Below, in pieces: positions 22,218-46,718 of a stretch of 46,718 nt of DNA. Position 1 is the stretch's first letter. Every line of letters begins with the position of its first letter. The position numbers and the translations under genes were made by a program. Where the stretch lies: assembly GCA_017620025.1 (NCBI GenBank), contig JAFZRF010000026.1:1-46718 (forward strand), written 5' to 3'. The notes below the pieces were generated by a model. It worked only from the letters and a program-made list of their open reading frames with translations. It was not told where the DNA came from and searched no databases. This DNA comes from Ruminococcus sp. (GTDB taxonomy: Bacteria; Bacillota; Clostridia; Oscillospirales; Ruminococcaceae).

Positions 22218-24155
22218 TCATTCAGTTCCGGCCAGTCTGCGGCACATCACTACATAATCGAATGTATCAAGCACACCGTCATTTACGAAGTCAGCAGCCT
22301 TCCAGTTCTTTATTTCAGCGGAAGTATCACCGAGGAGCCAGTTCTGTATCGTTACTGCATCTGCAACATTGAACTTGCCGTCGCCGCTGATGTCACCGGC
22401 TACCACCGGCTTTTCAGTAGGTTTCTCGGTGGGCTTTTCTGTGGGTTTCTCGGTAGGCTTTTCAGTAGGCTCTTCTGTCTGCCCGGAAGTCAGCATCTCC
22501 TTTATCTCCTTCGTTTCAAGGCAGTACTGCCAGATGCTGCCGTCCGTGCGAAGGATGTACATATAGTTGTATCCGGTCTCACTGTCCGATCTGCGGGTAA
22601 GCACTCTTTCAATGCCGCTCATGGAGAAGTGTTTATCATGCCATTCTATCGAGAGCACATCGTCATTTGAGATAATACAGTATGCTGTCTCCTCTGCCGG
22701 ATCGTAGTAGCTCAGCTTGAAGGAGGCATCGTACCGGTAGGCAGGCTTTTTCTCAGTGTAGTGCACTATCTCCTCTTCCTCGCCGCTGAAGTTGTAGTAA
22801 TGTCCGTCTAAGGTCTTGTAGCAGCGCACCGACCCCTCAGCGTTATGGTAATCGCCAACGCTCTCTACATTCTCGGCCTTCTTTGTCACCTCGGCCGTTC
22901 TGCCTACAGTGCGTACTGTCCAGAGCGTATTATTCTCGTCAATGAACATTGAGCTCATGTTCCATTTCGGATTCATGATACCGGTCGGAGTTATGATAAC
23001 CTCAGCCTCGTTGTCATCATTTACATTGTAATAGTACCATATAACCTCTCCGGACTTTGAGATGTAGAACTCATCACCCTTGGCAGCAAATTCCTTAAAG
23101 TCATCTGCTATCTTATATACCCAGGGCAGCCTGTCTATCTTGTAGGGCACCCAGAGCTGACCGTCCGATGTTACTGCACGCTCGAAAGCAATGCTCTCGA
23201 ATTTCTGATCCGGCACAGGCTCCTTGTTGACATAGAGCGTTCCGTCATTCTTGAGAAGCAGATCGGTGGTATAGCTCTGATTCATTCTCGCCTTTGAAGA
23301 AGCATACATAATGTCCTTTACATCCTTCTCCATAACGCTTATATCCTTGCCCTTGATGCCGTAGAGAGTGCCGTCACGCAGCACGCCGTAGGCCTTGTCC
23401 CAGGAGAGGGTGGCGAATTTGTTTTCAGTCTTTGTGTCATGGAGCTCCGGTGAATAAACATCCTGCTCTGTAACAGTGATATGACCCTTGAAGCGCTCCT
23501 CTCCGTCAACTATGACATGGTAATCGGTCTCACCGGGAGCAACTGCATATATACCTCTTACCGGGCCGAATACGGAAGTGTAGAAGCCGGCCGTCTCTGC
23601 AACGGACTCATCGTCTATCACTACGCTGTACTCATGCTTCCACAGTATGTTATCCGGGAATGCACCTATCTTTGACCTGAATCCCTTCTCGACCGTAACA
23701 TCCGGGCAGCGCATGACCGCAAGCCTCTTTTCAAGGTCTATCTGCGGCATATCGGTGATCTCGCAGATGTCGAGCTCAAGATCCCTGATGAATGATATAT
23801 CATCTATCGGAAGATTATCTATCAGCAGATCGGTAAGTGAATCCATTTCACTTAACACTGAGTAATCAGTGATATCACCGTTGCTCAGGAGCACTCTCGT
23901 ACACTTGTCAAGGTCGGCAAGCCATGAGATATCAGTAACGCCTGTCAGGTCAAGGCTTATAAGGTCGGCATTTTTCAGTTCCTCCATCGTGATGATGTTG
24001 TCGCTGTTCTTGTCGTACTTCCACGATACCTCCATGAGCTGATCGTAGGCAGCCTGCCCGATATCGGCCGGAACCGCTTCCTCTGCACTGACTGTTACAG
24101 GAACTGTATTCAGGAGCAGCGAGAGCCCTGCAATTATCGAAATGATCCTTTTCAT
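22218..24155 (-). CDS. Secreted dockerin protein with EF-hand, LRR and propeller-like repeats
   Basis: The order in this 645-aa protein is as follows. A signal peptide (about 1-24) comes first, then a single EF-hand loop at 48-59 (DKNSDNIITMEE) and a short leucine-rich-repeat-like stretch (about 65-135). A large domain with recurring GTLY/NTLW/GSIW motifs (about 230-560) resembles an RCC1-type propeller (LRDGTLYGI, KNDGTLYVN, DENNTLWTV, RTDGSIWQY). A five-fold PTEK tandem linker (about 563-585) leads to a C-terminal dockerin (about 588-643) of the NWKAAD subtype. No catalytic motif is seen. It is probably a binding or structural component docked on the cellulosome. It has its own promoter and terminator. 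Confidence 0.88.
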   Translation of the reverse strand: MKRIISIIAGLSLLLNTVPVTVSAEEAVPADIGQAAYDQLMEVSWKYDKNSDNIITMEELKNADLISLDLTGVTDISWLADLDKCTRVLLSNGDITDYSVLSEMDSLTDLLIDNLPIDDISFIRDLELDICEITDMPQIDLEKRLAVMRCPDVTVEKGFRSKIGAFPDNILWKHEYSVVIDDESVAETAGFYTSVFGPVRGIYAVAPGETDYHVIVDGEERFKGHITVTEQDVYSPELHDTKTENKFATLSWDKAYGVLRDGTLYGIKGKDISVMEKDVKDIMYASSKARMNQSYTTDLLLKNDGTLYVNKEPVPDQKFESIAFERAVTSDGQLWVPYKIDRLPWVYKIADDFKEFAAKGDEFYISKSGEVIWYYYNVNDDNEAEVIITPTGIMNPKWNMSSMFIDENNTLWTVRTVGRTAEVTKKAENVESVGDYHNAEGSVRCYKTLDGHYYNFSGEEEEIVHYTEKKPAYRYDASFKLSYYDPAEETAYCIISNDDVLSIEWHDKHFSMSGIERVLTRRSDSETGYNYMYILRTDGSIWQYCLETKEIKEMLTSGQTEEPTEKPTEKPTEKPTEKPTEKPVVAGDISGDGKFNVADAVTIQNWLLGDTSAEIKNWKAADFVNDGVLDTFDYVVMCRRLAGTE

Positions 24156-30400: not shown

Positions 30401-30480
30401 GGATAAACTGAATATATTTTTTATATTTAACTGTAACATACCGGCAGCTGCTGAGTCTTATGTATGAAGGCGGTGATAAG

Positions 30481-30969
30481 ATGAACACCATTGAAGAGCT
30501 CTACAATGAATATTTCCACGACATATACCTGTACCTTATGTCGCTGTCGCACAGCGAGGATACTGCATCAGAGCTTACACAGGAAACCTTTTTCCGGGCA
30601 ATGCGCTCTGTTGACAAATTCCGGGGTGACTGCGATGTCCGGGTATGGCTTTGTCAGATAGCAAAGAACGCCTTTCTTTCACAGTGCCGCAAGGACAGCC
30701 GCTTCACCGGAGAAGAGGTGCCGGAGACCGTACCGGATACCTCCGTTTCCATAGAGGACAGCCTTGCGGACAAGGAACGTTCCATGGCAATACATCAGAT
30801 ACTGCACGACATGAATGACCCGCACAAGGAGGTATTCACTCTCCGTGTGTTCGGAGAACTGAGCTTCAGGCAGATAGGCGGGCTTTTCGGCAAGACCGAA
30901 AGCTGGGCAAGAGTTACCTTTCATCGTGCAAAGCTTATGATAATCAGCAGACTGGAGGAATCAGAATGA
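30481..30969 (+). CDS. ECF-type RNA polymerase sigma factor
   Basis: The 162-aa protein has region 2 (YFHDIYLYLMSLSHSEDTASELTQETFFRAMRS) with the DNA-binding stretch FRGDCDVRVWLCQIAKNAFL. Region 4 (FTLRVFGELSFRQIGGLFGKTESWARVTFHRAKLMI) follows. The start at 30481 has AAGGCGGTG; the ATG at 30460 is an alternative. It overlaps the anti-sigma gene by 4 bp (ATGA), the normal arrangement for a sigma factor held inactive by its partner. Confidence 0.93.
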   Translation: MNTIEELYNEYFHDIYLYLMSLSHSEDTASELTQETFFRAMRSVDKFRGDCDVRVWLCQIAKNAFLSQCRKDSRFTGEEVPETVPDTSVSIEDSLADKERSMAIHQILHDMNDPHKEVFTLRVFGELSFRQIGGLFGKTESWARVTFHRAKLMIISRLEESE

Positions 30970-31619
30970 ACAACAACTGCGGTATAATAAAGGACCTGCT
31001 CCCGCTGTACGCTGACGGCGTATGCAGCGAGGAGAGCAGAAAAGCCGTTGAGGAGCATATCGCCGGATGCAGCGAATGCCGCTCCGAGCTTGAAAACATA
31101 AATAAGGATATAGCCGTTCCTGCCGTAAAGGATGCAGGAGCAGTAAAACGCATAAAGCGCCGTATACGCACAGAAAAGATAGTTGCCGGACTGGCTGCCG
31201 GAGCAGTCATACTCGGCGGACTTTCCTTTCTTGCTGTATGGCTGATAAATACGGACAGATCAATGGACATGGAGAAATACCACATCACCGAGAATGTCAC
31301 CGTCACCGAGCATGACGGAGCACTCTGGCTGAATGTAAAGGGTACTGCTTCATCCTTCTCCTTAGTATACCCTACACTCAGCGATACCGACGGAGATCAC
31401 TTCGGTTACGGCAAGGGCTTTGAAAAGGAGAAGAAGAACGGTATGGGATATACCCTGAAGCAGCGCCGCATAGACAGCTTTGCCTTTACGGAAATGGGCA
31501 GTGCTGAGCCGTTTGAAAGAAAGATAAAGGATATCAGCGAGCTTGATGAAAGCATCAGAAAGATATTCTACTACGATGATGTCAATAATAAAGAGTATAT
31601 TCTTTGGGAGCGTGACTGA
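30966..31619 (+). CDS. Zinc-finger (zf-HC2) membrane anti-sigma factor
   Basis: The 217-aa protein starts with a putative zinc-binding anti-sigma domain (about 1-45), having the H-x3-C-x2-C motif EEHIAGCSECRSEL. One membrane helix follows (about 75-97). The extracytoplasmic region (about 100-217) is of unknown fold and presumably senses an envelope signal. It would sequester the sigma factor encoded immediately upstream until cleaved or inactivated. Confidence 0.9.
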   Translation: MNNNCGIIKDLLPLYADGVCSEESRKAVEEHIAGCSECRSELENINKDIAVPAVKDAGAVKRIKRRIRTEKIVAGLAAGAVILGGLSFLAVWLINTDRSMDMEKYHITENVTVTEHDGALWLNVKGTASSFSLVYPTLSDTDGDHFGYGKGFEKEKKNGMGYTLKQRRIDSFAFTEMGSAEPFERKIKDISELDESIRKIFYYDDVNNKEYILWERD

Positions 31620-36748: not shown

Positions 36749-36777
36749 TTGTATCTCCGGTAAAAAAATGTTAGAAT
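36749..36777 (+). promoter_or_regulatory. Possible sigma-A promoter of the plus-strand sigma cassette
   Basis: TTGTAT and TAGAAT are separated by 17 bp, just upstream of the motif shared with the minus-strand cassette. Confidence 0.45.
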
Positions 36778-36779
36778 AA

Positions 36780-36816
36780 ACTTAGTATAGACCGCAGTTC
36801 CCATCGTCTAATAAGT
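36780..36816 (+). promoter_or_regulatory. Shared bipartite promoter motif of the sigma cassettes (plus copy)
   Basis: ACTTAG (36780-36785) and TAATAAGT (36809-36816) are separated by 23 bp. The same two blocks at the same spacing occur before the paralogous sigma gene at 46289-46325. This may be an autoregulated promoter or a site for a common regulator. Confidence 0.6.
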
Positions 36817-36849
36817 GAAAGGAATCCATTCCGGAAAGGAGTCCCCGAT

Positions 36850-37404
36850 ATGGAAAACGGTGAAAGTAGCTACCGCCGTTTCCTTGCAGGTGATGATGAA
36901 GGTATGGTAGAGCTTATCCGCAACTACAAGGACGGACTGATTCTCTATCTGTGCAGCATCACCGGCGACATTGATTCCGCAGAAGAATGCGTTCAGGATA
37001 CGTTCATAAGACTTGCTGTGAAGAAGCCGCATTTTGCAGGCCGCAGTTCCTTCCGCACATGGCTGTACGCTATCGGCAGGAATATGGCTGTAGACAGGCT
37101 CAGAAGCCTTAAACGCCGCAGGCAGACTTCTCTTGAGGACGCTGCTGAAATAAGCGATGGCTCTGACCTTGAACGCAGCTATCTTATGAGCGAAAGAAAG
37201 GTCACCCTCCACCGTGCTATGCGGAATCTGAAAAAAGAATACCAGCAGGTGCTGTGGCTGACCTATTTCGAGGAATTCACAGCTGCCGAGGCTGCTTCTG
37301 CTATGGGAAAGACAAGGAAGCAGACAGAGAACCTACTGTATAATGCAAGGAAGGCACTAAGAACAGAACTGGAAAAGGAGGGCTTCAGCTATGATGAGTT
37401 ATAA
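36850..37404 (+). CDS. ECF-type sigma factor, plus-strand dockerin cassette
   Basis: The 184-aa protein has region 2 (MVELIRNYKDGLILYLCSITGDIDSAEECVQDTFIRLAV) with SSFRTWLYAIGRNMAVDRLR. Region 4 (LKKEYQQVLWLTYFEEFTAAEAASAMGKTRKQTENLLYNARKAL) follows. It is paralogous along its whole length to the sigma factor at 45694-46245; both start with a SSY-RFL-GD motif. It overlaps the anti-sigma gene by 14 bp. It should control its own cassette and perhaps other dockerin genes. Confidence 0.93.
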   Translation: MENGESSYRRFLAGDDEGMVELIRNYKDGLILYLCSITGDIDSAEECVQDTFIRLAVKKPHFAGRSSFRTWLYAIGRNMAVDRLRSLKRRRQTSLEDAAEISDGSDLERSYLMSERKVTLHRAMRNLKKEYQQVLWLTYFEEFTAAEAASAMGKTRKQTENLLYNARKALRTELEKEGFSYDEL

Positions 37405-38446
37405 GGAAATGGCTGCCAATGTACTTGAAGCCCGGGACAGATACGAAGAAAAGAAGAAACGCAGGAAGACGCTTATGCTTCGCTGTATACCTGCTGCGGC
37501 AGGCCTTTGCCTGGCCGTTGTGCTGGGGGCAGCAGCAACAAAACACCCCCTGACCGATATACCTCAGCCGCCGGATATCGTTACAGAGACAGCACCAGTG
37601 ACTGACGAAGAGCCTGTCACTGCGGTAACAGAAGCAGTAACGACCGCATCAGCGGCAAAGCCCGGCAGAACAACCGCCACCGCAGTATCACAGACCGTAA
37701 CAAAGCCTGAAGTCACTGTGACAGCTGCCTCTGATGTTACGACTGTGCAGGGCAGTGAATCTTCTCACACAACGGCGGCAGCAAACAGCATAGTTACCGA
37801 AGCAGCTGTACCTCAGACCTTACCGATTGCAACAGTGCCAGAAAAACAGGAGCAGACGGCTGCTGTAACTGCACGCACCGAAAAGGTAAGCCAGTCCACA
37901 CAGGCCCCAGCAACGGTTACGATGCCCGTATCACCGCTCGAAAATATGCCTTCTCCTGTAGAGACTGCTCCGGCAGATCCCACGGAGAATGTTACTCCAA
38001 CTCTTAAAGAAGGCGGTCCGGACGATCCCTACGGCATAAAGGCAGTATGCCGGAAGTATGGCTTTATAGACATCGCTCCGGCTAATATACCGGAGGGCTT
38101 TGAGCTGATTGATATCGGATATGAAGAGCAGGAGGACGTAAACGTACTGTTTATCAACTTCAACCGGAAAAGAAGCAGACCTTACGGCGGCATCGGTGAA
38201 ACGATCTACCTTATCTATTCTTTCAACAAGAAAGCGGAGCCGCCTGACAACTGGGATACTATAATCCCACCACCGGATGTGGAGAACATGACCAGCACTG
38301 TAAACGGATATGAATTCAGGCATTACTACAGCAGTCTTGACAAACAGCTTTATGCCATATATACAGACAACAATCAGAGATTCACTATCATGGTCTGTGG
38401 CAGCGACCGTCAGACAGCTGAAAGCATTTTTACATCCATAGCATAA
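37391..38446 (+). CDS. Membrane anti-sigma-like protein with Thr-rich stalk and sensor domain
   Basis: The 351-aa protein has a cytosolic segment of only about 28 residues (MSYKEMAANVLEARDRYEEKKKRRK) and one membrane helix (about 29-50). A Thr/Ala/Val/Pro-rich stalk (about 55-205) leads to an extracellular domain (about 210-351), starting YGIKAVCRKYGFIDIAPANIPEGF and ending in a SIFTSIA helix reminiscent of DUF4367. It lacks the zinc-finger domain of common ECF anti-sigmas, so the short basic helix must bind the sigma factor if it is the anti-sigma. Position (14-bp overlap with the sigma gene) and topology, like RsgI of clostridial SigI systems, support this. The domain is shared with the product of 44508-45707. 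Confidence 0.82.
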   Translation: MMSYKEMAANVLEARDRYEEKKKRRKTLMLRCIPAAAGLCLAVVLGAAATKHPLTDIPQPPDIVTETAPVTDEEPVTAVTEAVTTASAAKPGRTTATAVSQTVTKPEVTVTAASDVTTVQGSESSHTTAAANSIVTEAAVPQTLPIATVPEKQEQTAAVTARTEKVSQSTQAPATVTMPVSPLENMPSPVETAPADPTENVTPTLKEGGPDDPYGIKAVCRKYGFIDIAPANIPEGFELIDIGYEEQEDVNVLFINFNRKRSRPYGGIGETIYLIYSFNKKAEPPDNWDTIIPPPDVENMTSTVNGYEFRHYYSSLDKQLYAIYTDNNQRFTIMVCGSDRQTAESIFTSIA

Positions 38447-38459
38447 AGGAGGGAATACT

Positions 38460-39572
38460 ATGAAAAAGATACTGATATCTGTTATTCTGGCCGCCATGCT
38501 ACCTATGCCGTATCCCACAACATACGCCGCAGATACAGATACTGCCGGATATCAGACCGCCCCTGTTTCAGATGACAATATGTATTATATCTTCTATAAG
38601 GACATTGACACGGCGGAGATTGACGAGGAAGTTGAAGAAAAGCGCCATGCCAAAATCTACGCTCTTTTTGATGAAGGCCTGAGCCAGAATGAAGTTGACC
38701 GGATAAGCAATGACTATTGTCAGGAGATACGGCTGGAGCTTCTGAAAGCCGCCTACAGGGAGGCCTCTGCAAAAGTCATTGCGGAGCTTGGCATAGATGA
38801 TCCCGGGATGTTCCGTTCAGCATTAGCGCCGCTTATTGTGTGCCGTCTGAGCGAAGAGCAGCTCCGCATAGCCGAGAGTTCCGAAAACATCTCTGATGTC
38901 ACGGTATTTCATGATTTCAGTCTCTCACCCGATATTCTTTATGACAGGGACAGCTTTATCGAAATGCTTACTGTTGACAATGATGGAAAAAGTGTTTTAG
39001 GTGATGGGATAAAAACCGATGCGATACTTAACAGCGGCGTAAATAATGATACAGATTTTCTTATCGTTTACGGACTGTCTGACACTGAAGAAATATCTCA
39101 GGTTATCAACCAGCTGAATACAATCAAAAAAGGAGAATGGGTCACGCCAATCGAAATAATGCCATTCAGCGGCCAGGATTTCGATTTTTCGGGCAGCAGC
39201 ATCATATCCAATAACAGAATAAAGCTGATAGTATTTGTGAATGATGTTACACCTGGTCTGACCGCAGATAATATCGGAAGCTATTCAGCAGGTGTCGGGT
39301 TTGATGCAAGGCCATATGTGATAAACCGAGGAGATACCAACGGTGACTATATCCTCGACGCCCGTGATGCCTCCGATATCCTGTCTGTCTACGCCGAACT
39401 TTCCACGAACAGCAGCACAGTGCTGAGTGCAGAAGAAAAGGCTGTAATGGACGTTGACGGCGACGGCAAGGTGGATTCTGCCGATGCAAGCAAGATATTG
39501 TCATATTACGCATACAGTTCAACCGATGGAAAAGGTCTGTTCGGAGAATGGCTCAATGCACAGAAACCGTAA
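38460..39572 (+). CDS. Secreted dockerin protein of the plus-strand sigma cassette
   Basis: The 370-aa protein has a signal peptide (about 1-23), an unassigned region (about 35-285) and a C-terminal dockerin (about 293-358) with loops GDTNGDYILDARD and MDVDGDGKVDSAD. Residues about 118-158 (LIVCRLSEEQLRIAESSENISDVTVFHDF) follow the pattern of subtilisin propeptide/inhibitor I9 domains: a strand, a Ser/Thr-E-E-Q helix, then V-x-V. That similarity is weak and inferred by eye. It starts 13 bp after the anti-sigma gene with AAAGGAGGG and is followed by a terminator. It is presumably the regulated output of the cassette. Confidence 0.85.
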   Translation: MKKILISVILAAMLPMPYPTTYAADTDTAGYQTAPVSDDNMYYIFYKDIDTAEIDEEVEEKRHAKIYALFDEGLSQNEVDRISNDYCQEIRLELLKAAYREASAKVIAELGIDDPGMFRSALAPLIVCRLSEEQLRIAESSENISDVTVFHDFSLSPDILYDRDSFIEMLTVDNDGKSVLGDGIKTDAILNSGVNNDTDFLIVYGLSDTEEISQVINQLNTIKKGEWVTPIEIMPFSGQDFDFSGSSIISNNRIKLIVFVNDVTPGLTADNIGSYSAGVGFDARPYVINRGDTNGDYILDARDASDILSVYAELSTNSSTVLSAEEKAVMDVDGDGKVDSADASKILSYYAYSSTDGKGLFGEWLNAQKP

Positions 39573-39596
39573 AACCCTGATCTCAATACAGATAAT

Positions 39597-39622
39597 AAGC
39601 CCTGGCTTGGTCAGGGCTTTTG
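39597..39622 (+). terminator. Terminator of the plus-strand sigma cassette
   Basis: AAGCCCTG and CAGGGCTT form an 8-bp stem with a 7-nt loop and TTTT, 24 bp after the stop; flanking AATAAGC/GCTTATT extends the symmetry. Confidence 0.85.
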
Positions 39623-39803
39623 CTTATTCATCATTAAATGACAGCGTCATAAAAACGGCCTGAGATTTGCAGATATGAATGATATGATACAGCCGCCCGT
39701 GATGGGCGGCATAGTGAATAAGACGCTGATATTGGCGCAGATCCCTTCACGGAGTGTTATTGTATACCGCTCACCTGTCGGAATATCGAAATCTGATATA
39801 TGA
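39623..39803. other. Intergenic region between the convergent cassettes
   Basis: This 181-bp stretch separates the two terminators. It contains one clear hairpin, GCCGCCC/GGGCGGC at 39692-39710. I find no reading frame with a ribosome binding site and no convincing promoter. Confidence 0.5.
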
Positions 39804-39836
39804 AATCCTCCCGGCTCGTTATGAACGGGGAGGATT
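39804..39836 (-). terminator. Terminator of the minus-strand dockerin cluster
   Basis: AATCCTCCCCG and CGGGAGGATT form a long stem, followed by TTTCAT on the minus strand, 18 bp after the last stop codon. Confidence 0.78.
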
Positions 39837-39854
39837 GTTAATCTATGCAGAGAT

Positions 39855-40871
39855 TTACATTATACCCGCATCTATCTTCTGGATAGCCATAGCATCTCCG
39901 CCGGTGATGCCGTCCTCGCCGTCAATATCTGCATTGAACTGCGCTTGTTCTGAAAGTGGATATTTCTCCTTGTTTGCAATGTACTGGAGAACTGCAACAG
40001 CATCGGCTACAGTGACTTTATCATCGCAGTTTGCATCACCATCGGTGTAATCCGAAATGTTGATGCCTCCACCTGAGTAATCGGGAAAATCGTGATGTCC
40101 CCATGTATACCTGTACACGGCGTCTGTATCTTCTGACACCAGCACCATGTATATCTCGTCAAAGAGGGCTAATTTTTCAAGCTGCGTCATCTCTTTTTCG
40201 GGGATAAACCGTATAGCCCTGCAAACCGCTGCATTGTCCTCGTTTTCGTATGGTTCGCTGTAAATGAATTCCTTCGTAAACCCGATTTTCTTCTCGGTAA
40301 GGTATTTTTCAACCCTTTCCTCGTCGGCTGTCTGGAAGGAAAGAAAATCATCACTGATACAGGCGGGGCGGAATTCAATTACTGTAAAAGCGGATGCGAA
40401 CTTCACCGCTGTCTCGCTGATGAAACTGCTTTCTTTCAGGGCACGGTATGCCTTTTTAAACTCAGAGGTGCTTACTCTGTCTCCGTAAAATGCAAGGCGG
40501 CTGTATTCCTTATTATGTGTTATGATGTGGGCGGAGGTGAGGCCAAGGGAATCAATAAGCGTCTCCGCATCTTTCTCATTTGCGCCATCGCTGAGACGAT
40601 AGCTCAGCTTCATGCCACCGGAAAACTTTATCTTCAGGCTGGCAGAGGTATCGCTGACATATATCTCTGTACCGGGCAGGTAGACAGTATCGGTGTCGTA
40701 GTAAGCAAAGATAGGCTCAAGGTTATCATACTGCCCTCTTTCGATCCTTGTGAATCCGTCAAGCTGACTGTCATCAAAGGGGATATCAACTGCACCGGAA
40801 AACATCGGTATCGGACTGCACATCATAGCTGCACCCATAAGCGCCGCAATTATCTTCCTTATCTTTTTCAT
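39855..40871 (-). CDS. Secreted dockerin protein D of the minus-strand cluster
   Basis: The 338-aa protein has a signal peptide (MKKIRKIIAALMGAAMM...) and two successive alpha/beta units of about 75 residues. The units include DAETLIDSLGL ... YSRLAFYGDRVSTSEFKKAYRAL and VEKYLTEKKIGF ... AIRFIPEKEMTQLEKLALFDEIY. The C-terminal dockerin (about 276-336, GDANCDDKVTVADAVAVLQ and NADIDGEDGITGGDAMAIQ) is nearly the same as in its neighbours. The second unit strongly resembles one in protein A (43399-44445), so they are paralogs. No catalytic motif is seen. GGAGGA precedes the start; it is the last gene of the six-gene operon. Confidence 0.85.
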   Translation of the reverse strand: MKKIRKIIAALMGAAMMCSPIPMFSGAVDIPFDDSQLDGFTRIERGQYDNLEPIFAYYDTDTVYLPGTEIYVSDTSASLKIKFSGGMKLSYRLSDGANEKDAETLIDSLGLTSAHIITHNKEYSRLAFYGDRVSTSEFKKAYRALKESSFISETAVKFASAFTVIEFRPACISDDFLSFQTADEERVEKYLTEKKIGFTKEFIYSEPYENEDNAAVCRAIRFIPEKEMTQLEKLALFDEIYMVLVSEDTDAVYRYTWGHHDFPDYSGGGINISDYTDGDANCDDKVTVADAVAVLQYIANKEKYPLSEQAQFNADIDGEDGITGGDAMAIQKIDAGIM

Positions 40872-40909
40872 AATGCTTCCTCCTTCTCAGTCCGTCACTT
40901 ATGCAGGGC

Positions 40910-41893
40910 TTATTCATCCCATACCGCTGCATCTATCATCTGTATAGCCCTCACGTCACCGCCAGTCAGACCGTCCTCGCCGTCGATATCCGCATTGGAT
41001 ATGCCCTGCGCTGTCATAGGGTATTTCTCACCGTTGGTCATGTACTGGAGAACTGCCACAGCATCTGCTATATCAACTGTACCGTTGCAGTTTGCGTCGC
41101 CGGGAGTACATACCTCCATCAGTGCTGCTGTTTCATGCTCTCCACCTTCCCAATGAGCGGCCATGCCATAGTTTATCCTGTGCTCGACTCCGCTTTCAAC
41201 AAGTCTTACCATAGCATCATAAGCCTTGCCGGGTTCTTCCATTCGCGACCAGATGTTATTGCTCAGATCAAATACAAGGTCATATCCTTCAACCTGCATA
41301 TCTGATTCTATTAATCCAAGTTCCGGATAGAGCGCTGCGAACTCTCCGGCAGTCATATCTGTATTGACAGCTATCCGTGAGATGCTGTCAAAGGGCCGAA
41401 ACTGTTCTAAAGGTGTTACCATGCAGATCTCCCTGACAGCAGCAGATCTCTTTGCTTCCACAACAGCCATTCTGACATCGGCTGTTTTAACGGCGGAAAG
41501 GTAATATCCGGAACCTGCCTTATCGCCAAATAAAGCTTCAAGGTATTCGCGTCCGTTTTCCGGAAGTTTCTCAAAATCCTCATATTTTATACTTGCATCT
41601 CCGCTGAGTTCGATATCCTCAGAGCCATAGCCCTCTCTGAATTCAACCTTTACTATAGGCTGTGATTCAGTATATTGCCGTAATGAACATTCTTTTGTAA
41701 GCACAAGATAGGATGCTGCCTCCGGATCTCTCGCCTTGTAATATGTATCAACGATTACAGCCCCTTCGCTCATACCTTCCAATGCGCTCTTAATATCAGG
41801 ATAAACCTTATAGGCGTTTGCCGCTGCAGGAGTTGCTGTCAGCATCATGACTGCGCCCATAAGCGCCGCAATTATCTTCCTTGTCTTTTTCAT
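40910..41893 (-). CDS. Secreted dockerin protein C of the minus-strand cluster
   Basis: The 327-aa protein has a signal peptide (MKKTRKIIAALMGAVMM...) and an unassigned region with two helix-strand units. One includes VKTADVRMAVVEAKRSAAVREICMV, followed by EFAALYPELGLIESDMQVEGYDLVF, which recurs in protein B as AEYPELGLKALT...GYDHVF. The C-terminal dockerin is at about 263-322 (PGDANCNGTVDIADAVAVLQ). The open frame extends 11 codons upstream to 41926, but AGGAGGGG is placed for the ATG at 41893. It ends 38 bp before gene D. Confidence 0.85.
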   Translation of the reverse strand: MKKTRKIIAALMGAVMMLTATPAAANAYKVYPDIKSALEGMSEGAVIVDTYYKARDPEAASYLVLTKECSLRQYTESQPIVKVEFREGYGSEDIELSGDASIKYEDFEKLPENGREYLEALFGDKAGSGYYLSAVKTADVRMAVVEAKRSAAVREICMVTPLEQFRPFDSISRIAVNTDMTAGEFAALYPELGLIESDMQVEGYDLVFDLSNNIWSRMEEPGKAYDAMVRLVESGVEHRINYGMAAHWEGGEHETAALMEVCTPGDANCNGTVDIADAVAVLQYMTNGEKYPMTAQGISNADIDGEDGLTGGDVRAIQMIDAAVWDE

Positions 41894-42050
41894 AGTCTGC
41901 CCCTCCTTTTTAAGGAAATCGTTCACACTATTCCTGCATCTATCATCTGGATAGCTATAGCATCTCCGCCGGTTATGCCCTCTTCGCCATCAATGTCAGC
42001 GTTGAACTTCGCCTGTGCAGTCAGAGGGTATTTCTCAGCGTTTGCTATGT
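41850..42050. repeat. Duplicated gene junction, copy 1 (B/C)
   Basis: The block covering the dockerin end of B, the spacer and the signal-peptide start of C is almost identical to 43326-43520, with a few substitutions, including the non-coding spacer. Confidence 0.8.
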
Positions 42051-43368
42051 ATTGCAGCACTGCCACGGCGTCGGCTACATTCACCTTGCCGTCCGCATTG
42101 GCGTCGCCTCTTGTTCTTTTGGCTGCTATGGCAGTATCTGTAAGCCCGTAACTCATCATCACCGGAAGCTGCTTGCTGTCAGGCTCTGCCTCCGCTGCAT
42201 CTGTTATAGCCGCCGCAGTCTTTATCCTTGTTTCCATATCCGTATCATCAGAGAACACAAGGGCGAATCCATCCTTATAGACGGACTGATATATGCTTAT
42301 TACGCCTGTCATATCTGCATCCTTTATCTCTGCGCTGATACCGTTGTCCGCTATGTATTTCTCCGCAGCCTCTCTTGCCTCATGCTGGAAAGTAAATGGC
42401 TGGTCGCAGATGATATCAAGGTATCTAATCATGTCATCCTGCTCATAGAATGCACGGTATTTCCTGCCGTCAGGAGAAGCGTATATCAAGGGAGCGTTCA
42501 TGCCTGCGGTATTCCTGTCAAAGAGACCGTAATCATCACTGAGCCTTATCAAACCTTCTGTATTTTCACTCAGCAGCTCATCGGGGACAAAGTCCGTCCA
42601 TGGCGCACGGCGGTAGACCGTCTTTATTAGCCTGCTGCCGCTGGGGATCATGTCCGCTATCTCGGCCGATGTGCAACCGAAATCAAATCTGTATCCGCTC
42701 TCTATAAGTCTCTTGACCGCTTCGTAGCCGCCGGGGTTGCTGCCTGTGTCATAAAAATAGGCAAGGGGTTTTTCAGTCATGAAGACATGATCGTATCCGG
42801 CCGCTAAGGTGTTCTTATCCGGCGTCAGAGCTTTCAGGCCGAGCTCGGGATATTCTGCAATAAAGGCCTCATCTTCAATGTCTCCGTCGATATACAGATA
42901 TGTGGCGAAGAAGTAGCCGGAGCTTCCCTCTTCCCTTTTCCAGATTTCATAGGTATCACGTATCTCGGCGATATCGCCGATGCTCCTTAGTATACGATAG
43001 GCTTCAGCGTTATCCCAGAATTTTATCTGCGCCCTGCATACTCCGTCTTCATATGCAGCTGTTCCGAAGCTGCCGAGCTTTTCGTTTATCATATCCGCAT
43101 CGAGGGTCTTGCCACTGACTGGGAGTAGCTCCGTGTATAGCCTTACACACTGATACTTGTGAAGTATGCCGTCCTCGGTTATGAAGTAAACTGTACCGTC
43201 ATTGCCTCTGCTTATATTTATCCCGCCCCCGCCGTAGGAAGCGGTGATATCCTCCTCGCTGCTGTAGACCGGTTCATCGAGGAAATCCGCAAATGAAACG
43301 GCCGGAACTGCTGTTATCATCATGCATGCGGCCATAAGCCCCGCAATTATCTTCCTTGTCTTTTTCAT
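41923..43368 (-). CDS. Secreted dockerin protein B of the minus-strand cluster
   Basis: The 481-aa protein is the longest of the four. The signal peptide (MKKTRKIIAGLMAACMM) is almost identical to that of C. The middle region (about 40-415) contains several alpha/beta units, including FIAEYPELGLKALTPDKN...GYDHVFMTEKPLAYFYDTGSNPGGYEAVKRLIESGYRF, shared with C. The C-terminal dockerin is at about 420-479. The gene 3' end, intergenic spacer and following signal-peptide region are nearly identical in DNA to the A/B junction, evidence of recent duplication. No enzyme motif is recognised. Confidence 0.85.
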   Translation of the reverse strand: MKKTRKIIAGLMAACMMITAVPAVSFADFLDEPVYSSEEDITASYGGGGINISRGNDGTVYFITEDGILHKYQCVRLYTELLPVSGKTLDADMINEKLGSFGTAAYEDGVCRAQIKFWDNAEAYRILRSIGDIAEIRDTYEIWKREEGSSGYFFATYLYIDGDIEDEAFIAEYPELGLKALTPDKNTLAAGYDHVFMTEKPLAYFYDTGSNPGGYEAVKRLIESGYRFDFGCTSAEIADMIPSGSRLIKTVYRRAPWTDFVPDELLSENTEGLIRLSDDYGLFDRNTAGMNAPLIYASPDGRKYRAFYEQDDMIRYLDIICDQPFTFQHEAREAAEKYIADNGISAEIKDADMTGVISIYQSVYKDGFALVFSDDTDMETRIKTAAAITDAAEAEPDSKQLPVMMSYGLTDTAIAAKRTRGDANADGKVNVADAVAVLQYIANAEKYPLTAQAKFNADIDGEEGITGGDAIAIQMIDAGIV

Positions 43369-43520
43369 AGTCTGGCCCTCCTTTTTTAAGGGAATCGTTC
43401 ACACTATTCCTGCATCTATCATCTGGATGGCTATAGCATCTCTGCCGGTTATGCCCTCTTCGCCGTCAATGTCAGCGTTGAACTTCGCCTGTGCCGTAAG
43501 GGGATATTTATCCTTGTTTG
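43326..43520. repeat. Duplicated gene junction, copy 2 (A/B)
   Basis: This is the counterpart of 41850-42050, covering the dockerin end of A, the spacer and the signal-peptide start of B. Identity in the spacer indicates recent tandem duplication or gene conversion. Confidence 0.8.
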
Positions 43521-44445
43521 CTATGTACTGGAGTACCGCCACAGCATCGGAAACAGTAAGCTTTCCGTCATTGTTGGCGTCTCCGTCCACATAGTCGTAT
43601 ACATTGAGATCGATCCTGTGTGTGCCGATGATTACCGGTGACTCCCAGACTGTATAAGCAGAGGGATCACGCTCGGAAAGTCCGCATTCAGTGAATATCT
43701 CATCGAAGAGAGCTATTTTTTCAAGCTGATCCATTTCCGTTTCCGGAACGAATTTAACCGCCGTGGAGTAGTAACCCGGAGTTGTGCCGGGAGTATCATC
43801 ATTTATCTCCTCCGTTGTGAATGCTATGCCCTTTTCAGTGAGATAGTCAGATACTATTTCCTCTTCATTCCTGTAGAATGCAAGGAAGTCATTGCTGATT
43901 ATGCCGCTGCGGTACCAGTCTTCGGCTGTGGCGCCGAGGCTTGCGCCGTTCATCTCCATGATGCCGCCGGTAGCTCTGAGCTCCTTACATATGCTTTTTA
44001 TATCGGCAACGCTTAAAGAAGTATCTGCGATATAGACTGAGTAGTTGCCCCACTGCCCGGGCATTTCAAGGTCGATCCCTTCATAATCGAGCAGATAGTC
44101 GTCACCGGAGATATACTTATCAAGTATCTCTGTGACATCCTCCTGTGTAAACTTAGTATCAAGAAGGAAACTAATCCAGAAGATACCGGGCTTTTTCTTC
44201 AGGAGCTGAGCCCTGTCGTTCCTTACATAAAGCTCTGTACCCTCAAGATATCCCGGCATGTTCCATGTACCGTTCTCTGTATAGTACGGCTCGGTAAAGC
44301 TGTACTTTCCCTTTTCAAGCATAGTATAGCCCGCCAGACTGTCTTCTCTGAACGGTTTGTATACTGCTCCTGATGTGAAGGGAACAGTGCCAGTCATCAT
44401 AGCTGCGGACATCATAGCCGCAATTATCTTCGCTGTCTTTTTCAT
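43399..44445 (-). CDS. Secreted dockerin protein A of the minus-strand cluster
   Basis: The 348-aa protein has a signal peptide (MKKTAKIIAAMMSAAMM...), two alpha/beta units like those in protein D (VSDYLTEKGIAFTTEEI ... AVKFVPETEMDQLEKIALFDEIF) and a C-terminal dockerin (about 287-346). I place the start at 44445, where AAAGGAGG lies upstream; the open frame up to 44511 has no such signal. It is the first effector gene after the anti-sigma gene (62-bp gap). A role in docking to a scaffoldin is expected from the dockerin; the function of the alpha/beta part is unknown. Confidence 0.85.
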   Translation of the reverse strand: MKKTAKIIAAMMSAAMMTGTVPFTSGAVYKPFREDSLAGYTMLEKGKYSFTEPYYTENGTWNMPGYLEGTELYVRNDRAQLLKKKPGIFWISFLLDTKFTQEDVTEILDKYISGDDYLLDYEGIDLEMPGQWGNYSVYIADTSLSVADIKSICKELRATGGIMEMNGASLGATAEDWYRSGIISNDFLAFYRNEEEIVSDYLTEKGIAFTTEEINDDTPGTTPGYYSTAVKFVPETEMDQLEKIALFDEIFTECGLSERDPSAYTVWESPVIIGTHRIDLNVYDYVDGDANNDGKLTVSDAVAVLQYIANKDKYPLTAQAKFNADIDGEEGITGRDAIAIQMIDAGIV

Positions 44446-44507
44446 ACAGATTCCTCCTTTACAGACTAAGCCTGTTTTCATCCTTTTTTTGTGTATCCGT
44501 GTTGCTG

Positions 44508-45707
44508 TCATGAAACTGACATCAGTATCCTCTCAGCTCCATGCTGCGTCAGTCCATCTATCTGAACGTACATGGCATATCTGCCGTCAAGGTGTTCCGC
44601 TACAAGCATCTGGCTGTCATTGTCATAGCGGTATCTGAACCTGCGGCCGTTTATCTCCGTCACCTGTACCTCCCCGGGGTCTGCCAGTGCAGAAAAGCCG
44701 CTGTTTTCCGGTATATCCGCTTCTTCGCTCATTTTGTATACCAGCCACAGGTAGTCCGTCTTATTGTTATCATTTCTTATCCTTCGATATCCGAAAATTA
44801 GCTGTCTGCTGCCAGACTGCTCCTCATTTATAAGGCGGGTCAGTTCAAATCCGGGCATTATGTAGGAAGGGGCGATATCCATATACCCCATCTTACTGCA
44901 TACTGTCTTTATGCCAATCGGGTCTTCTTCCGAAGTTGGCAGTATGATGTTGCCATTCACCCTTATTATGCCGTATTCATCAGGTTCAGGTCTGCCGGTA
45001 TACTCGGGTGTTGAGGTGCCTTTCTCCCATGTTGCCGCAGCTTCGGTGGCAAGCTGTGTTGCAGGCGCTGTAACGGGTGATGCCAACGCTGTAGCAGGTA
45101 AGGTAGCCACTTCTACTGCCTGTGTAGGGCATTGCAGCGGAGGTGCTGTCGCCAGTTCTTCACCCCCTTCCGGTTGCTGCGCCGGTTCTGTAGGCTGCTG
45201 TTCTGGTTCTGTCGGCTGTTCCGGCTCTGCGGTGCTCACCGGTATCTCTGCTGCCGTCTGCGCTTCCGTAGCTGCCGCCGGTGCTTCTGTCACTGCCGCC
45301 TGTGTCTGCACCGCCTGAGGTGCTTCCGTTCTCACCGGAGCTGCTAAGGCGGGGGCAGTCTCCGTCGCAGGCGCTGCTGTTGTCGGTATGGCTGTGGCTG
45401 CCTCAGTGGCAGCCTCTGTCTTCTTCGGTTTTGTAGTTTTCTTCTCTGCCGGAGCGGTGGTCTGCTCTGTTGCAGGCTCTGTTGTCTCAGCCGCCTCAGT
45501 CGTCACAGTCTCAGGTAACTGCGGTATCTCGGGGACACGATGAAGGGCAGGGCTCTTCCATATGCCGAAGACGATAAGCGCCGCTGCACACAGTCCCGAT
45601 ACTGAAAACGATATACGTCTTATCATTGTATTCTTTTTCTGACGATCCGCAATTATCCTGTCGCCGCGTTCCATGATCGCCTGTGCACGTCTCTCAAATC
45701 TGTCCAT
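44508..45707 (-). CDS. Membrane anti-sigma-like protein of the minus-strand cassette
   Basis: The 399-aa protein mirrors the one at 37391-38446. It has a cytosolic segment of about 30 residues (MDRFERRAQAIMERGDRIIADRQKK), a membrane helix (about 31-50), and a very long low-complexity stalk of Thr/Glu/Ala/Pro/Gln (about 58-235). A C-terminal domain (about 255-399) follows, with IGIKTVCSKMGYMDIAPSYIMPGF at its start and an AERILMSVS helix at its end. The shared C-terminal domain and identical 14-bp overlap with the sigma gene support a sigma/anti-sigma pair. The stalk may span the wall and place the sensor near the substrate. Confidence 0.82.
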   Translation of the reverse strand: MDRFERRAQAIMERGDRIIADRQKKNTMIRRISFSVSGLCAAALIVFGIWKSPALHRVPEIPQLPETVTTEAAETTEPATEQTTAPAEKKTTKPKKTEAATEAATAIPTTAAPATETAPALAAPVRTEAPQAVQTQAAVTEAPAAATEAQTAAEIPVSTAEPEQPTEPEQQPTEPAQQPEGGEELATAPPLQCPTQAVEVATLPATALASPVTAPATQLATEAAATWEKGTSTPEYTGRPEPDEYGIIRVNGNIILPTSEEDPIGIKTVCSKMGYMDIAPSYIMPGFELTRLINEEQSGSRQLIFGYRRIRNDNNKTDYLWLVYKMSEEADIPENSGFSALADPGEVQVTEINGRRFRYRYDNDSQMLVAEHLDGRYAMYVQIDGLTQHGAERILMSVS

Positions 45708-46245
45708 CTATGCCCCTCCTCTCCATCTCATCCTTCAAAGCCTTCTTCGCGCAGTAGAGAAGCTGAGTTGTCTGACGGGGGCTCTTGCCCATGACCTTTG
45801 CCGCCTCAGCCACCGTCAGTCCCTCGAAATAAACAAGGAACAGCACCTGCGCGTATTCATTTTTGAGGGCTTTTATACACCGGCTGATAATGATTCTGTC
45901 TTCGCCTTTGATATACTCTGCCTCAATATCTGTTTCATCCGAGATATAGCTGAGATCCTCCGCAGGGGAGAACCTGTGCCTTTTCAGTTTTTTCAGATAG
46001 TTGAGTGCCGTATTGCGCCCGATGGTATAGAGCCAGGTCTTGAATGAATACTCCGGCTTATACTTCGGCCTGTCCACATACAGCTTCATGAAGGCATCAT
46101 CCGCGGCCTCTTCTGAGATATGTATATCGCCGACGATAGTGTTGATGAATAAAGTGAGGCCGTCGCTGTACTCTCTGACCAGCTCCACAAATGCGTCATT
46201 ATCACCGTCAAGGAAACGGAGGTAGCTACTTGCACCGTTATCCAT
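45694..46245 (-). CDS. ECF-type sigma factor of the minus-strand dockerin cluster
   Basis: The 183-aa protein is a paralog of the sigma factor at 36850-37404. Region 2 has VELVREYSDGLTLFINTIVGDIHISEEAADDAFMKLYV with YSFKTWLYTIGRNTALNYLK. Region 4 has LKNEYAQVLFLVYFEGLTVAEAAKVMGKSPRQTTQLLYCAKKAL. It heads a six-gene operon (sigma, anti-sigma, four dockerin proteins). AAAGGAG lies before the start. The likely role is switching on the operon when the anti-sigma releases it. Confidence 0.93.
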   Translation of the reverse strand: MDNGASSYLRFLDGDNDAFVELVREYSDGLTLFINTIVGDIHISEEAADDAFMKLYVDRPKYKPEYSFKTWLYTIGRNTALNYLKKLKRHRFSPAEDLSYISDETDIEAEYIKGEDRIIISRCIKALKNEYAQVLFLVYFEGLTVAEAAKVMGKSPRQTTQLLYCAKKALKDEMERRGIDGQI

Positions 46246-46288
46246 GCGTAAACTCCTTTAGTGAGGAATCCGAAACTTTTCTTTCTTT

Positions 46289-46325
46289 ACTTATTATACA
46301 ACGAAAAGCAGTACAATGTCTAAGT
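46289..46325 (-). promoter_or_regulatory. Shared bipartite promoter motif of the sigma cassettes (minus copy)
   Basis: On the minus strand ACTTAG (46325-46320), 23 bp, then TAATAAGT (46296-46289) reproduces the motif at 36780-36816. Overlapping it, TAGACA and TATAAT with an 18-bp spacer could serve as a sigma-A promoter. Confidence 0.6.
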
Positions 46326-46357
46326 GTGCTGCAAAATATTTTACATTTAACTATATA

Positions 46358-46408: not shown

Positions 46409-46718
46409 TTACTCGCTTACTATCTTATTTCTCATAAATACCATATCAAAGGCATCAACAGAATTGTCGCTGTTAAGGTCGGCGGCTCTCCAGTCGTTAA
46501 GCTCTGTGCCGGGAACTGCAAGAAGCCATTTCTGGAGCAGCACTGCATCGGCTATCCCGAATGTACCGTCACCGTTTACATCTCCGCTGACAGTTGTCTC
46601 CGCAGGAACAGCGTTCAGGCAGCCTTCTTCGATAAGATGGATAAGCAGTGGCTGAATATGCCCATGGTCAAGCCATAATGAGTTGCTTCCGATATCGGCT
46701 ACTTCATACAAAAGCTTG
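46409..46718 (-). CDS. Dockerin protein, 3' end only (runs off the window)
   Basis: The frame is open to the window edge, so only the last 102 or so residues are seen. They end in a dockerin (about 60 residues, SGDVNGDGTFGIADAVLLQKWLL and NDWRAADLNSDNSVDAFDMVFMRNK) of the same NWRAAD/NWKAAD subtype as the protein at 22218-24155. The preceding piece (LWLDHGHIQPLLIHLIEEGCLNA) does not identify the main domain. It has its own terminator, so it is a separate unit from the sigma cassette. Confidence 0.85.
   Translation of the reverse strand, partial: KLLYEVADIGSNSLWLDHGHIQPLLIHLIEEGCLNAVPAETTVSGDVNGDGTFGIADAVLLQKWLLAVPGTELNDWRAADLNSDNSVDAFDMVFMRNKIVSE

Follow-up and report, generated by a model that had tools for sequence, protein, structure and literature searches.

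Two convergent cassettes in the Ruminococcus window

The DNA analysed here (the window) is a contig of 46,718 nt (JAFZRF010000026.1, assembly GCA_017620025.1) from an incomplete Ruminococcus sp. genome (2.7 Mb, 76% complete), and it carries two convergent gene cassettes that span positions 36776-46329. Both follow the same order, in which an upstream motif precedes the gene of an extracytoplasmic function (ECF) sigma factor, whose end overlaps by 14 bp a gene for a protein with a single transmembrane (TM) segment and a stalk rich in Thr, Pro and Ala, followed by one (plus strand) or four (minus strand) genes for secreted dockerin proteins (Table 1). This layout had been proposed in a preliminary description of the window, and we confirmed the coordinates of its paralogous, convergent sigma genes (36850 on the plus strand and 45694 on the minus strand), the exact 14-bp overlap in both cassettes, and the one and four secreted dockerin proteins, four of which (all except B3) exceed the Pfam cutoff for Dockerin_1. 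The same two cassettes are present in the same convergent arrangement in a relative (genome G096), and the closest match among named genomes, an uncultured Ruminococcus metagenome-assembled genome, has 99% identity over the sigma factor.

Table 1. Coordinates of the cassette features and of the adjoining contig end. PWM, position weight matrix; SD, Shine-Dalgarno sequence. Minus-strand dockerin starts were placed at an SD plus MKK.
Feature	Position	Strand	Details
ECF-type promoter motif, plus cassette	36776..36823	+	-35 ACTTAG 36780-36785; -10 CGTCTAATAAGTGAAAG 36805-36821; PWM 31.2 bits (full matrix, this site itself part of the training set); exact -10 match
ECF sigma factor A, sigma2 + sigma4, 184 aa	36850..37404	+	Sigma70_r2 3.2e-13; Sigma70_r4_2 5.6e-10
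Putative membrane anti-sigma A, 351 aa	37391..38446	+	N-terminal helix, one TM, Thr/Pro/Ala stalk, class F ectodomain ~38009-38443
Secreted dockerin protein A1	38460..39572	+	Dockerin_1 4.9e-05; starts 14 positions past the anti-sigma gene end
Terminator-like hairpin between the convergent cassettes	39597..39619		Consensus match, both strands
Secreted dockerin protein B4	39855..40871	-	Dockerin_1 6e-05
Secreted dockerin protein B3	40910..41893	-	Start reassigned to MKK + SD; Dockerin_1 0.0022, score 18.6, below cutoff 22.9; local dockerin model positive, B3 being one of its seeds
Secreted dockerin protein B2	41923..43368	-	Dockerin_1 6.9e-06
Secreted dockerin protein B1	43399..44445	-	Start reassigned to MKK + SD; Dockerin_1 3.7e-05
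Putative membrane anti-sigma B, 399 aa	44508..45707	-	Class F ectodomain ~44511-44984
ECF sigma factor B, 183 aa	45694..46245	-	Sigma70_r2 5.6e-12; Sigma70_r4_2 1.8e-09
ECF-type promoter motif, minus cassette, weaker	46282..46329	-	TAATAAGT from 46296; ACTTAG 46325-46320; PWM 16.4 bits (full matrix)
Further dockerin protein, C-terminal part, cut by contig end	46409..46717	-	Dockerin_1 1.5e-10 on 46409-46711

The sigma factor family and its membrane partner

The two sigma factors of the window are 48% identical, about 180 amino acids (aa) long, and contain only sigma2 and sigma4, both of which exceed the cutoffs of the Pfam families r2 and r4_2. A profile built from six members of the family matches SigH, SigW, RpoE, and CnrH among solved structures (CnrH at 2.9e-07). 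By its sequence, the protein is a true ECF sigma factor, as the preliminary description had it. Six strong hits to the sigma model were identified in the window's own genome (the lowest at 226.5 bits, with the next sigma factor at 59.8), and the partner model gave six hits at E ≤ 0.01, each of them adjoining one of the six sigma genes. The family is present in 78 of 100 genomes of the genus (six-sigma profile, E ≤ 1e-40). Fourteen copy-rich genomes encode 143 sigma copies at E ≤ 1e-30, with a maximum of 21 in Ruminococcus flavefaciens FD-1 (G045), and adding the own genome brings the total to 149 cassettes, in 146 of which the following open reading frame (ORF) has at least 100 aa.

The membrane partners A and B are 31% identical overall and 33% identical over the ectodomain. 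Each has one TM segment near residues 27-54 and a stalk of 154 or 189 residues that consists of 48% or 57% Thr, Pro, and Ala, which agrees with the single span, the stalk and the related ectodomains described earlier. The cytosolic part comprises about 26-31 residues, with room for one helix, and the zinc motif Hx3Cx2C is absent from the window's two partners; the preliminary description had given about 28 cytosolic residues and no zinc finger. In an alignment of 140 of the 143 partners (three from copies with a stop in the sigma factor or the partner were omitted), the first hydrophobic segment starts at residue 26-35 in 121 (the 12 commonest starts) and at residue 27-32 in 104.

Paralogues keep this helix and TM segment and carry many unrelated ectodomains. 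BLAST grouping of the outside part gave 21 clusters, the largest with 47, 33, 12, 10, and 9 members, and a profile comparison of the 11 largest classes detected no relation between them (every probability <3%). The ectodomains of the window's partners belong to class F, which has five members, the other three being from G096. Searches against Pfam, NCBIfam, and PDB sequences gave nothing usable on ectodomain identity. The Pfam scan covered 106 + 32 partners, with two G096 near-duplicates of the window's partners left out; it found almost nothing in the 106, among which one ectodomain matches DUF4367. Class F resembles DUF4367 by eye only.

The partner was further searched for with its first 59 residues alone, in six frames of the 14 genomes. 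The hits lie directly after a sigma copy in 84/84 cases at E ≤ 1e-10, in 123/124 at E ≤ 1e-3 and in 130/144 at E ≤ 0.1, and the sole exception at E ≤ 1e-3 (G096, contig C99) is situated less than 200 bases from a contig end. A partner hit accompanies 130 of the 143 sigma copies. In a second set, made up of the best 80 of more than 575 loci in named genomes and sharing some genomes with the first set, all 79 partners match the N-terminal model. Homologues of the membrane protein thus adjoin sigma genes, as had been proposed. Of 130 adjacent pairs, measured from the start of the independent model hit, 96 have an overlap of 14 bp between the sigma and partner genes, the figure used here, and 16 have one of 11 bp; choosing the ATG nearest a 14-bp overlap would give 114/146 and 74/79. 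The SD of the partner gene (AAGGAGG or GAGGAGG) sits within the 3′ end of the sigma gene, which is the likely cause of the 14-bp overlap, and its position suggests that the sigma factor and its partner are translated in a coupled manner.

Coevolution was analysed in 211 unique pairs of 221 (sigma factors of 170-195 aa). The coupling test was restricted to sigma residues 1-172, since the final codons of the sigma gene also lie in the partner gene; couplings to the residues that they encode were disregarded. One face of the partner's N-terminal helix is coupled to sigma regions 2.1/2.2, with a signal that exceeds two re-pairing nulls; the seven helix positions of the cluster-based test were picked from the top coupling list. 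Weak couplings also connect partner position n15 to sigma4 residues 156 and 161. Among sigma-partner residue pairs, the combinations most frequent in the family are D16-R15, E49-R14, and A56-R15, and copy A of the window combines D16, Q49, and A56 with A14 and R15. According to the accessible text of one study, class I anti-sigma factors use their helix 4 to contact regions 2.1/2.2 (PMC7406223). The N-terminal helix of the partner is predicted to bind these same regions, and the reading of the partner as an anti-sigma factor is supported.

The partner might instead be a co-transcribed membrane protein or receptor, with the sigma factor controlled otherwise, for example at transcription. Class II CnrY has two helices and class I four, and the cytosolic part of the partner is shorter than either; no anti-sigma Pfam match was found in the window's partners or in the relatives scanned by Pfam. 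However, the near-obligate pairing with the sigma factor and the coevolution of the helix face with regions 2.1/2.2 above both nulls argue against this alternative, which we consider improbable, and for an anti-sigma role.

Dockerin genes, fused anti-sigmas and the upstream motif

After the partner gene, a dockerin protein is encoded by 59 of 96 next genes on the same strand and by 8 of 47 next genes on the opposite strand, against a local background of 44/310 (14%) among genes more than 5 kb away; the gap in this strand-specific excess is 23 bp. Of the 149 cassettes, 145 are complete (three have no partner ORF and one is cut by a contig end), and 106 of these have a dockerin link, whether downstream, divergent, or fused. 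The dockerin gene is directly downstream in 58, the dockerin is part of the anti-sigma in 33, and one of the two genes upstream is a divergent dockerin gene in 26. Two of the six cassettes in the own genome have a dockerin gene immediately downstream, and a third has the dockerin in its anti-sigma. When 141 cassettes with sigma factors of 170-195 aa were clustered, 51 of 67 clusters at 80% identity and 30 of 38 at 70% had a dockerin link. Sigma copy number also correlates with the number of first-look dockerin candidates, used as a proxy because the dockerin scan scores no more than about 57 candidates in each genome (rho 0.78 in 100 genus genomes and 0.48 after genome size; 0.89 and 0.66 in the 58 genomes at least 90% complete); shared ancestry is still contained in these correlations.

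Dockerins could be so common that any gene has one nearby, as the 232 first-look candidates in the 2.7 Mb of the own genome and the 14% background might suggest. Such a chance neighbourhood is very improbable and was rejected on the strand-specific excess over the background, with its 23-bp gaps, on the dockerin links of the sigma clusters at 70% identity, and on the motif counts given below.

Among 62 linked dockerin proteins, including the five of the window, Pfam recognised 56 with Dockerin_1 (E ≤ 0.01), eight serpins, three CBM4_9, two GH11, and two Big_3, all other families having one member each. Few were recognised as polysaccharide-acting enzymes. The four dockerin proteins of the minus strand (39855-44445) group into two diverged pairs, with identities of about 35% and 28%; the DNA of their signal peptides is very similar, and they look as if they arose by tandem duplication. 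A protease-inhibitor (I9-like) reading of the window's dockerin proteins, made by eye, received no support from searches and was rejected.

A shared motif lies upstream of the sigma genes, mostly 39-51 bp before the start codon, with a -10 element cGTCTAATAAGTgAAAG and a -35 element near CTTnGA. It scores above 10 bits in 131 of 147 sigma upstream regions with the test genome left out (block-shuffled maximum 5.3), in a scheme in which near relatives stay in training and the training sites were chosen with the full matrix. Apart from sigma and partner genes, the fetched loci contain 172 dockerin genes and 716 non-dockerin genes of at least 100 aa, and the motif lies before 22 of the former, many of these 22 being divergent from a cassette, vs. 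9 of the latter (Fisher 2.6e-10); one of the nine is the truncated copy of a dockerin gene that is itself counted in the 22, and two are ECF-sigma-like by eye. When four whole genomes were scanned for the -10 pattern, with at most two mismatches allowed, 29 sites were identified. Eleven were in G035, where five precede sigma genes, three lie upstream of dockerin genes at a distance of more than 100 kb from the nearest cassette, one precedes a radical-SAM gene (by eye), and two precede neither. Of the four sites in the own genome, two lie before sigma genes and none before a dockerin gene.

Variants of the -35/-10 elements were seen by sensor class, namely GCGCGTAGT with CGTC in 9/9 of class E and GGTAC before TAATAA in 11/12 of class C, hinting at separate promoter specificities. 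A conserved ECF-like -10/-35 was also observed before a gene that by eye resembles an ABC-2/TagG-type polysaccharide export permease (G000 C51:38379, locus L191; G096 C68:7610, locus L200), and this gene may belong to the regulon of one sigma factor. A radical-SAM gene (by eye) has the same motif in three genomes (loci L202, L086, and L137).

One ectodomain cluster of 33 members consists of anti-sigmas joined to dockerin proteins. Dockerin_1 was identified by Pfam in 28 of 32 of them, with one member that lacks a dockerin (L030) left out; the fused copies of FD-1 include those at C61:7318 and C93:193. In 29 of the 33, a Met within the frame is followed by residues that resemble a signal peptide, vs. 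1 of 107 other partners, by a rule fixed after the fused class had been seen. An exact SD of at least five bases precedes 20 of 30 internal Mets vs. 26 of 902 control internal Mets, and one of at least six bases 16 of 30 vs. 3 of 902. The internal ribosome site, start codon and signal peptide are all kept in 20 of the 33 members, and 12 of 19 clusters at 60% keep an SD of at least five bases; the internal SD is lost in the fused copy of the own genome (contig C10) and its G096 relative. This class seems to derive from an operon of two genes that merged into a single frame, with the start of the second gene retained, and the fusion suggests a functional tie between anti-sigma and dockerin protein.

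A tRNA-Leu gene lies directly upstream of the plus cassette. At 30460-31619, a second ECF-like sigma gene overlaps the gene of a zinc-finger (Hx3Cx2C) protein, by eye an ordinary sigma/anti-sigma pair and a useful contrast to the two cassettes. Other dockerin-bearing ORFs found with the local model are at 1261-2559, 11895-13844 (serpin-like by eye), and 22218-24155, and no motif hit above 3 bits was found just before them. At the position of the dockerin gene cut by the contig end, G096 has a dockerin ORF of 522 aa with a third cassette beyond it (locus L177, C26:43224-43757), whose sigma gene is about 7 kb further on; this cassette is perhaps present in the own genome past the contig end at 46718.

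Proposed signalling and comparison with known systems

We consider it likely that each cassette is a cell-surface signalling unit in which an ECF sigma factor and its cognate membrane anti-sigma act on dockerin genes. The two proteins would probably be co-translated. At rest, the short N-terminal helix of the anti-sigma would pack on sigma regions 2.1/2.2, as coevolution predicts, and would, as known anti-sigma factors do, keep the sigma factor from the RNA polymerase core, while the long stalk would hold the variable ectodomain outside the cell. An outside signal would free the sigma factor, probably via regulated proteolysis. The freed sigma factor would then transcribe its own operon from a dedicated promoter (autoregulation) and, as predicted from the motifs, dockerin genes downstream, divergent, or elsewhere; CGTCTAATAAGT promoters are the predicted targets of the cognate sigma factor. 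Loading of the secreted dockerin proteins on cohesins would then alter cellulosome composition.

Several observations weigh against this signalling unit. The sigma family is also present in 25 of 116 other genomes of the order, with one to three copies each. At a limit of E ≤ 1e-13, 12 of the 116 genomes have a dockerin hit, and five of these carry the family, as do 20 of the other 104; the limit is strict, and some of the 116 may bear dockerins below it. The ancestral role of the family therefore need not be cellulosomal, and the dockerin linkage looks like an expansion within Ruminococcus. The dockerin linkage of the preliminary description stands across the genus, and the family extends beyond cellulosome makers. 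No dockerin link was found in 39 of the 145 complete cassettes, and three of the six cassettes in the own genome have no dockerin; the clustered cassettes come in part from related genomes, which are not independent. The motif scores 10 bits or less in 16 of 147 sigma upstream regions, and the minus promoter fits the sigma-70 consensus at 11/12 positions and could be a sigma-70 promoter. Read in reverse, the -10 pattern matched 32 sites vs. 29 across the four genomes scanned (19 in FD-1, 6 in G096, 4 in the own genome, and 3 in G035), so the -10 element alone is not specific, above all in FD-1. No sugar-binding domain or carbohydrate-binding module (CBM) was recognised by Pfam in the ectodomains. 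Finally, a null built from close relatives yields up to 8 of 16 coupling pairs, and part of the coupling signal is thus ancestry.

The cassettes might be general envelope-stress systems that sense cell-wall damage, proteases, or antimicrobials, with dockerins caught up because they are common on secreted proteins. The order-level genomes that carry the family without a dockerin hit would fit this alternative, as would the serpins and the few glycoside hydrolases among the linked dockerin proteins, the one DUF4367 match, and the lack of CBM matches in the ectodomains. However, the dockerin excess over the local background, the enrichment at motif sites, the copy number that tracks dockerin number after genome size, and the dockerin-anti-sigma fusions all speak against it, and we regard envelope stress as somewhat unlikely.

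Similar to SigI/RsgI of Clostridium (Acetivibrio) thermocellum, the Ruminococcus family comprises several paralogous sigma/membrane-sensor operons per genome with outside sensor domains. In the available text on C. thermocellum, SigI/RsgI pairs are autoregulated and control cellulosome genes (PMC6056542; PMC12203970), and region 4 of SigI is replaced by another C-terminal domain (PMC6056542). In contrast, the Ruminococcus sigma factor has region 4 and not SigI_C, and its partner, without RsgI_N, is predicted to place one helix on region 2 and has ectodomains without known CBMs at the sequence level. RsgI_N (PF12791) was not among the Pfam hits of the window's partners or the 106 + 32 relatives; it is at most single-copy per genome and, at E ≤ 1e-3, occurs in 19 of the 100 genomes from the genus (five above cutoff), and none was found in the own genome, FD-1, G096, or G035. 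A SigI/RsgI system in another guise would share the same logic of paralogous operons in cellulosome makers, but it is extremely improbable and was rejected, since sigma region 4 is present and RsgI_N absent.

The Ruminococcus pairs are also similar to class I (ASDI) pairs such as SigW/RsiW and RpoE/RseA, with which they share an ECF sigma factor and a predicted contact at regions 2.1/2.2 like that of ASDI helix 4. Different from ASDI, in which three of four helices lie on sigma4, the partner has, judged by length only, no room for a sigma4-binding bundle; the window's two have no zinc motif, and their short cytosolic part compares with an ASDI average of 101 residues. CnrY, like the Ruminococcus partner, is a short cytosolic anti-sigma on a membrane anchor, and the sigma profile matches its cognate CnrH as noted above. 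Class II CnrY has two helices, on sigma4 and sigma2, whereas the partner has room for one. None of the described anti-sigma classes is a full fit for the putative anti-sigma.

More than 200 dockerin proteins have been reported in R. flavefaciens FD-1 (PMC3573020, in its available part), and the cargo of the cassettes is similar to the serpin-, leucine-rich-repeat- and unknown-dockerin set of this strain (PMC2930009; PMC5301203). In the accessible text of these two dockerin papers the word sigma is absent; of four papers on the R. flavefaciens genome and dockerins, three lack it and the fourth has it twice, both times in a supplier name. A literature search on ECF sigma factors with dockerins and on sigma/anti-sigma factors of the R. 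flavefaciens cellulosome, with most subscription journals and the large 2021 ECF reclassification outside its coverage, found no description of such a system. A 2024 survey, as far as its available text goes, places a dedicated suite of RsgI receptors only in Acetivibrio-type cellulosome producers (PMC11557425). In Ruminococcus albus 7 grown on cellulose, Rumal_2572 (an ECF sigma factor) was up 8.8-fold and Rumal_2573 (a TM protein) 8.2-fold, according to the part of the study at hand (PMC4300822); these outside data are suggestive, the pair being only candidate members of the family.

For the fused class, we tentatively propose, as an unlikely but specific scheme, that a single gene may yield two products, an anti-sigma that is tethered to the membrane and bears a dockerin, and a dockerin subunit that is secreted and free. 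Through competition of the two for the same cohesins, the cell could read cohesin occupancy, a measure of how full the cellulosome is, and adjust dockerin supply via the sigma factor. If this is true, the separate dockerin protein of two-gene cassettes, including those of the window, would be the soluble partner of the sensor.

The family provides a concrete candidate for how ruminal Ruminococcus choose among their dockerin proteins, namely up to 21 ECF sigma/anti-sigma receptors per genome, and this candidate control layer comes with a promoter motif and predicted targets. It also includes a predicted very small anti-sigma, with one helix on sigma region 2, and many paired sigma/anti-sigma variants, which may be insulated from each other.

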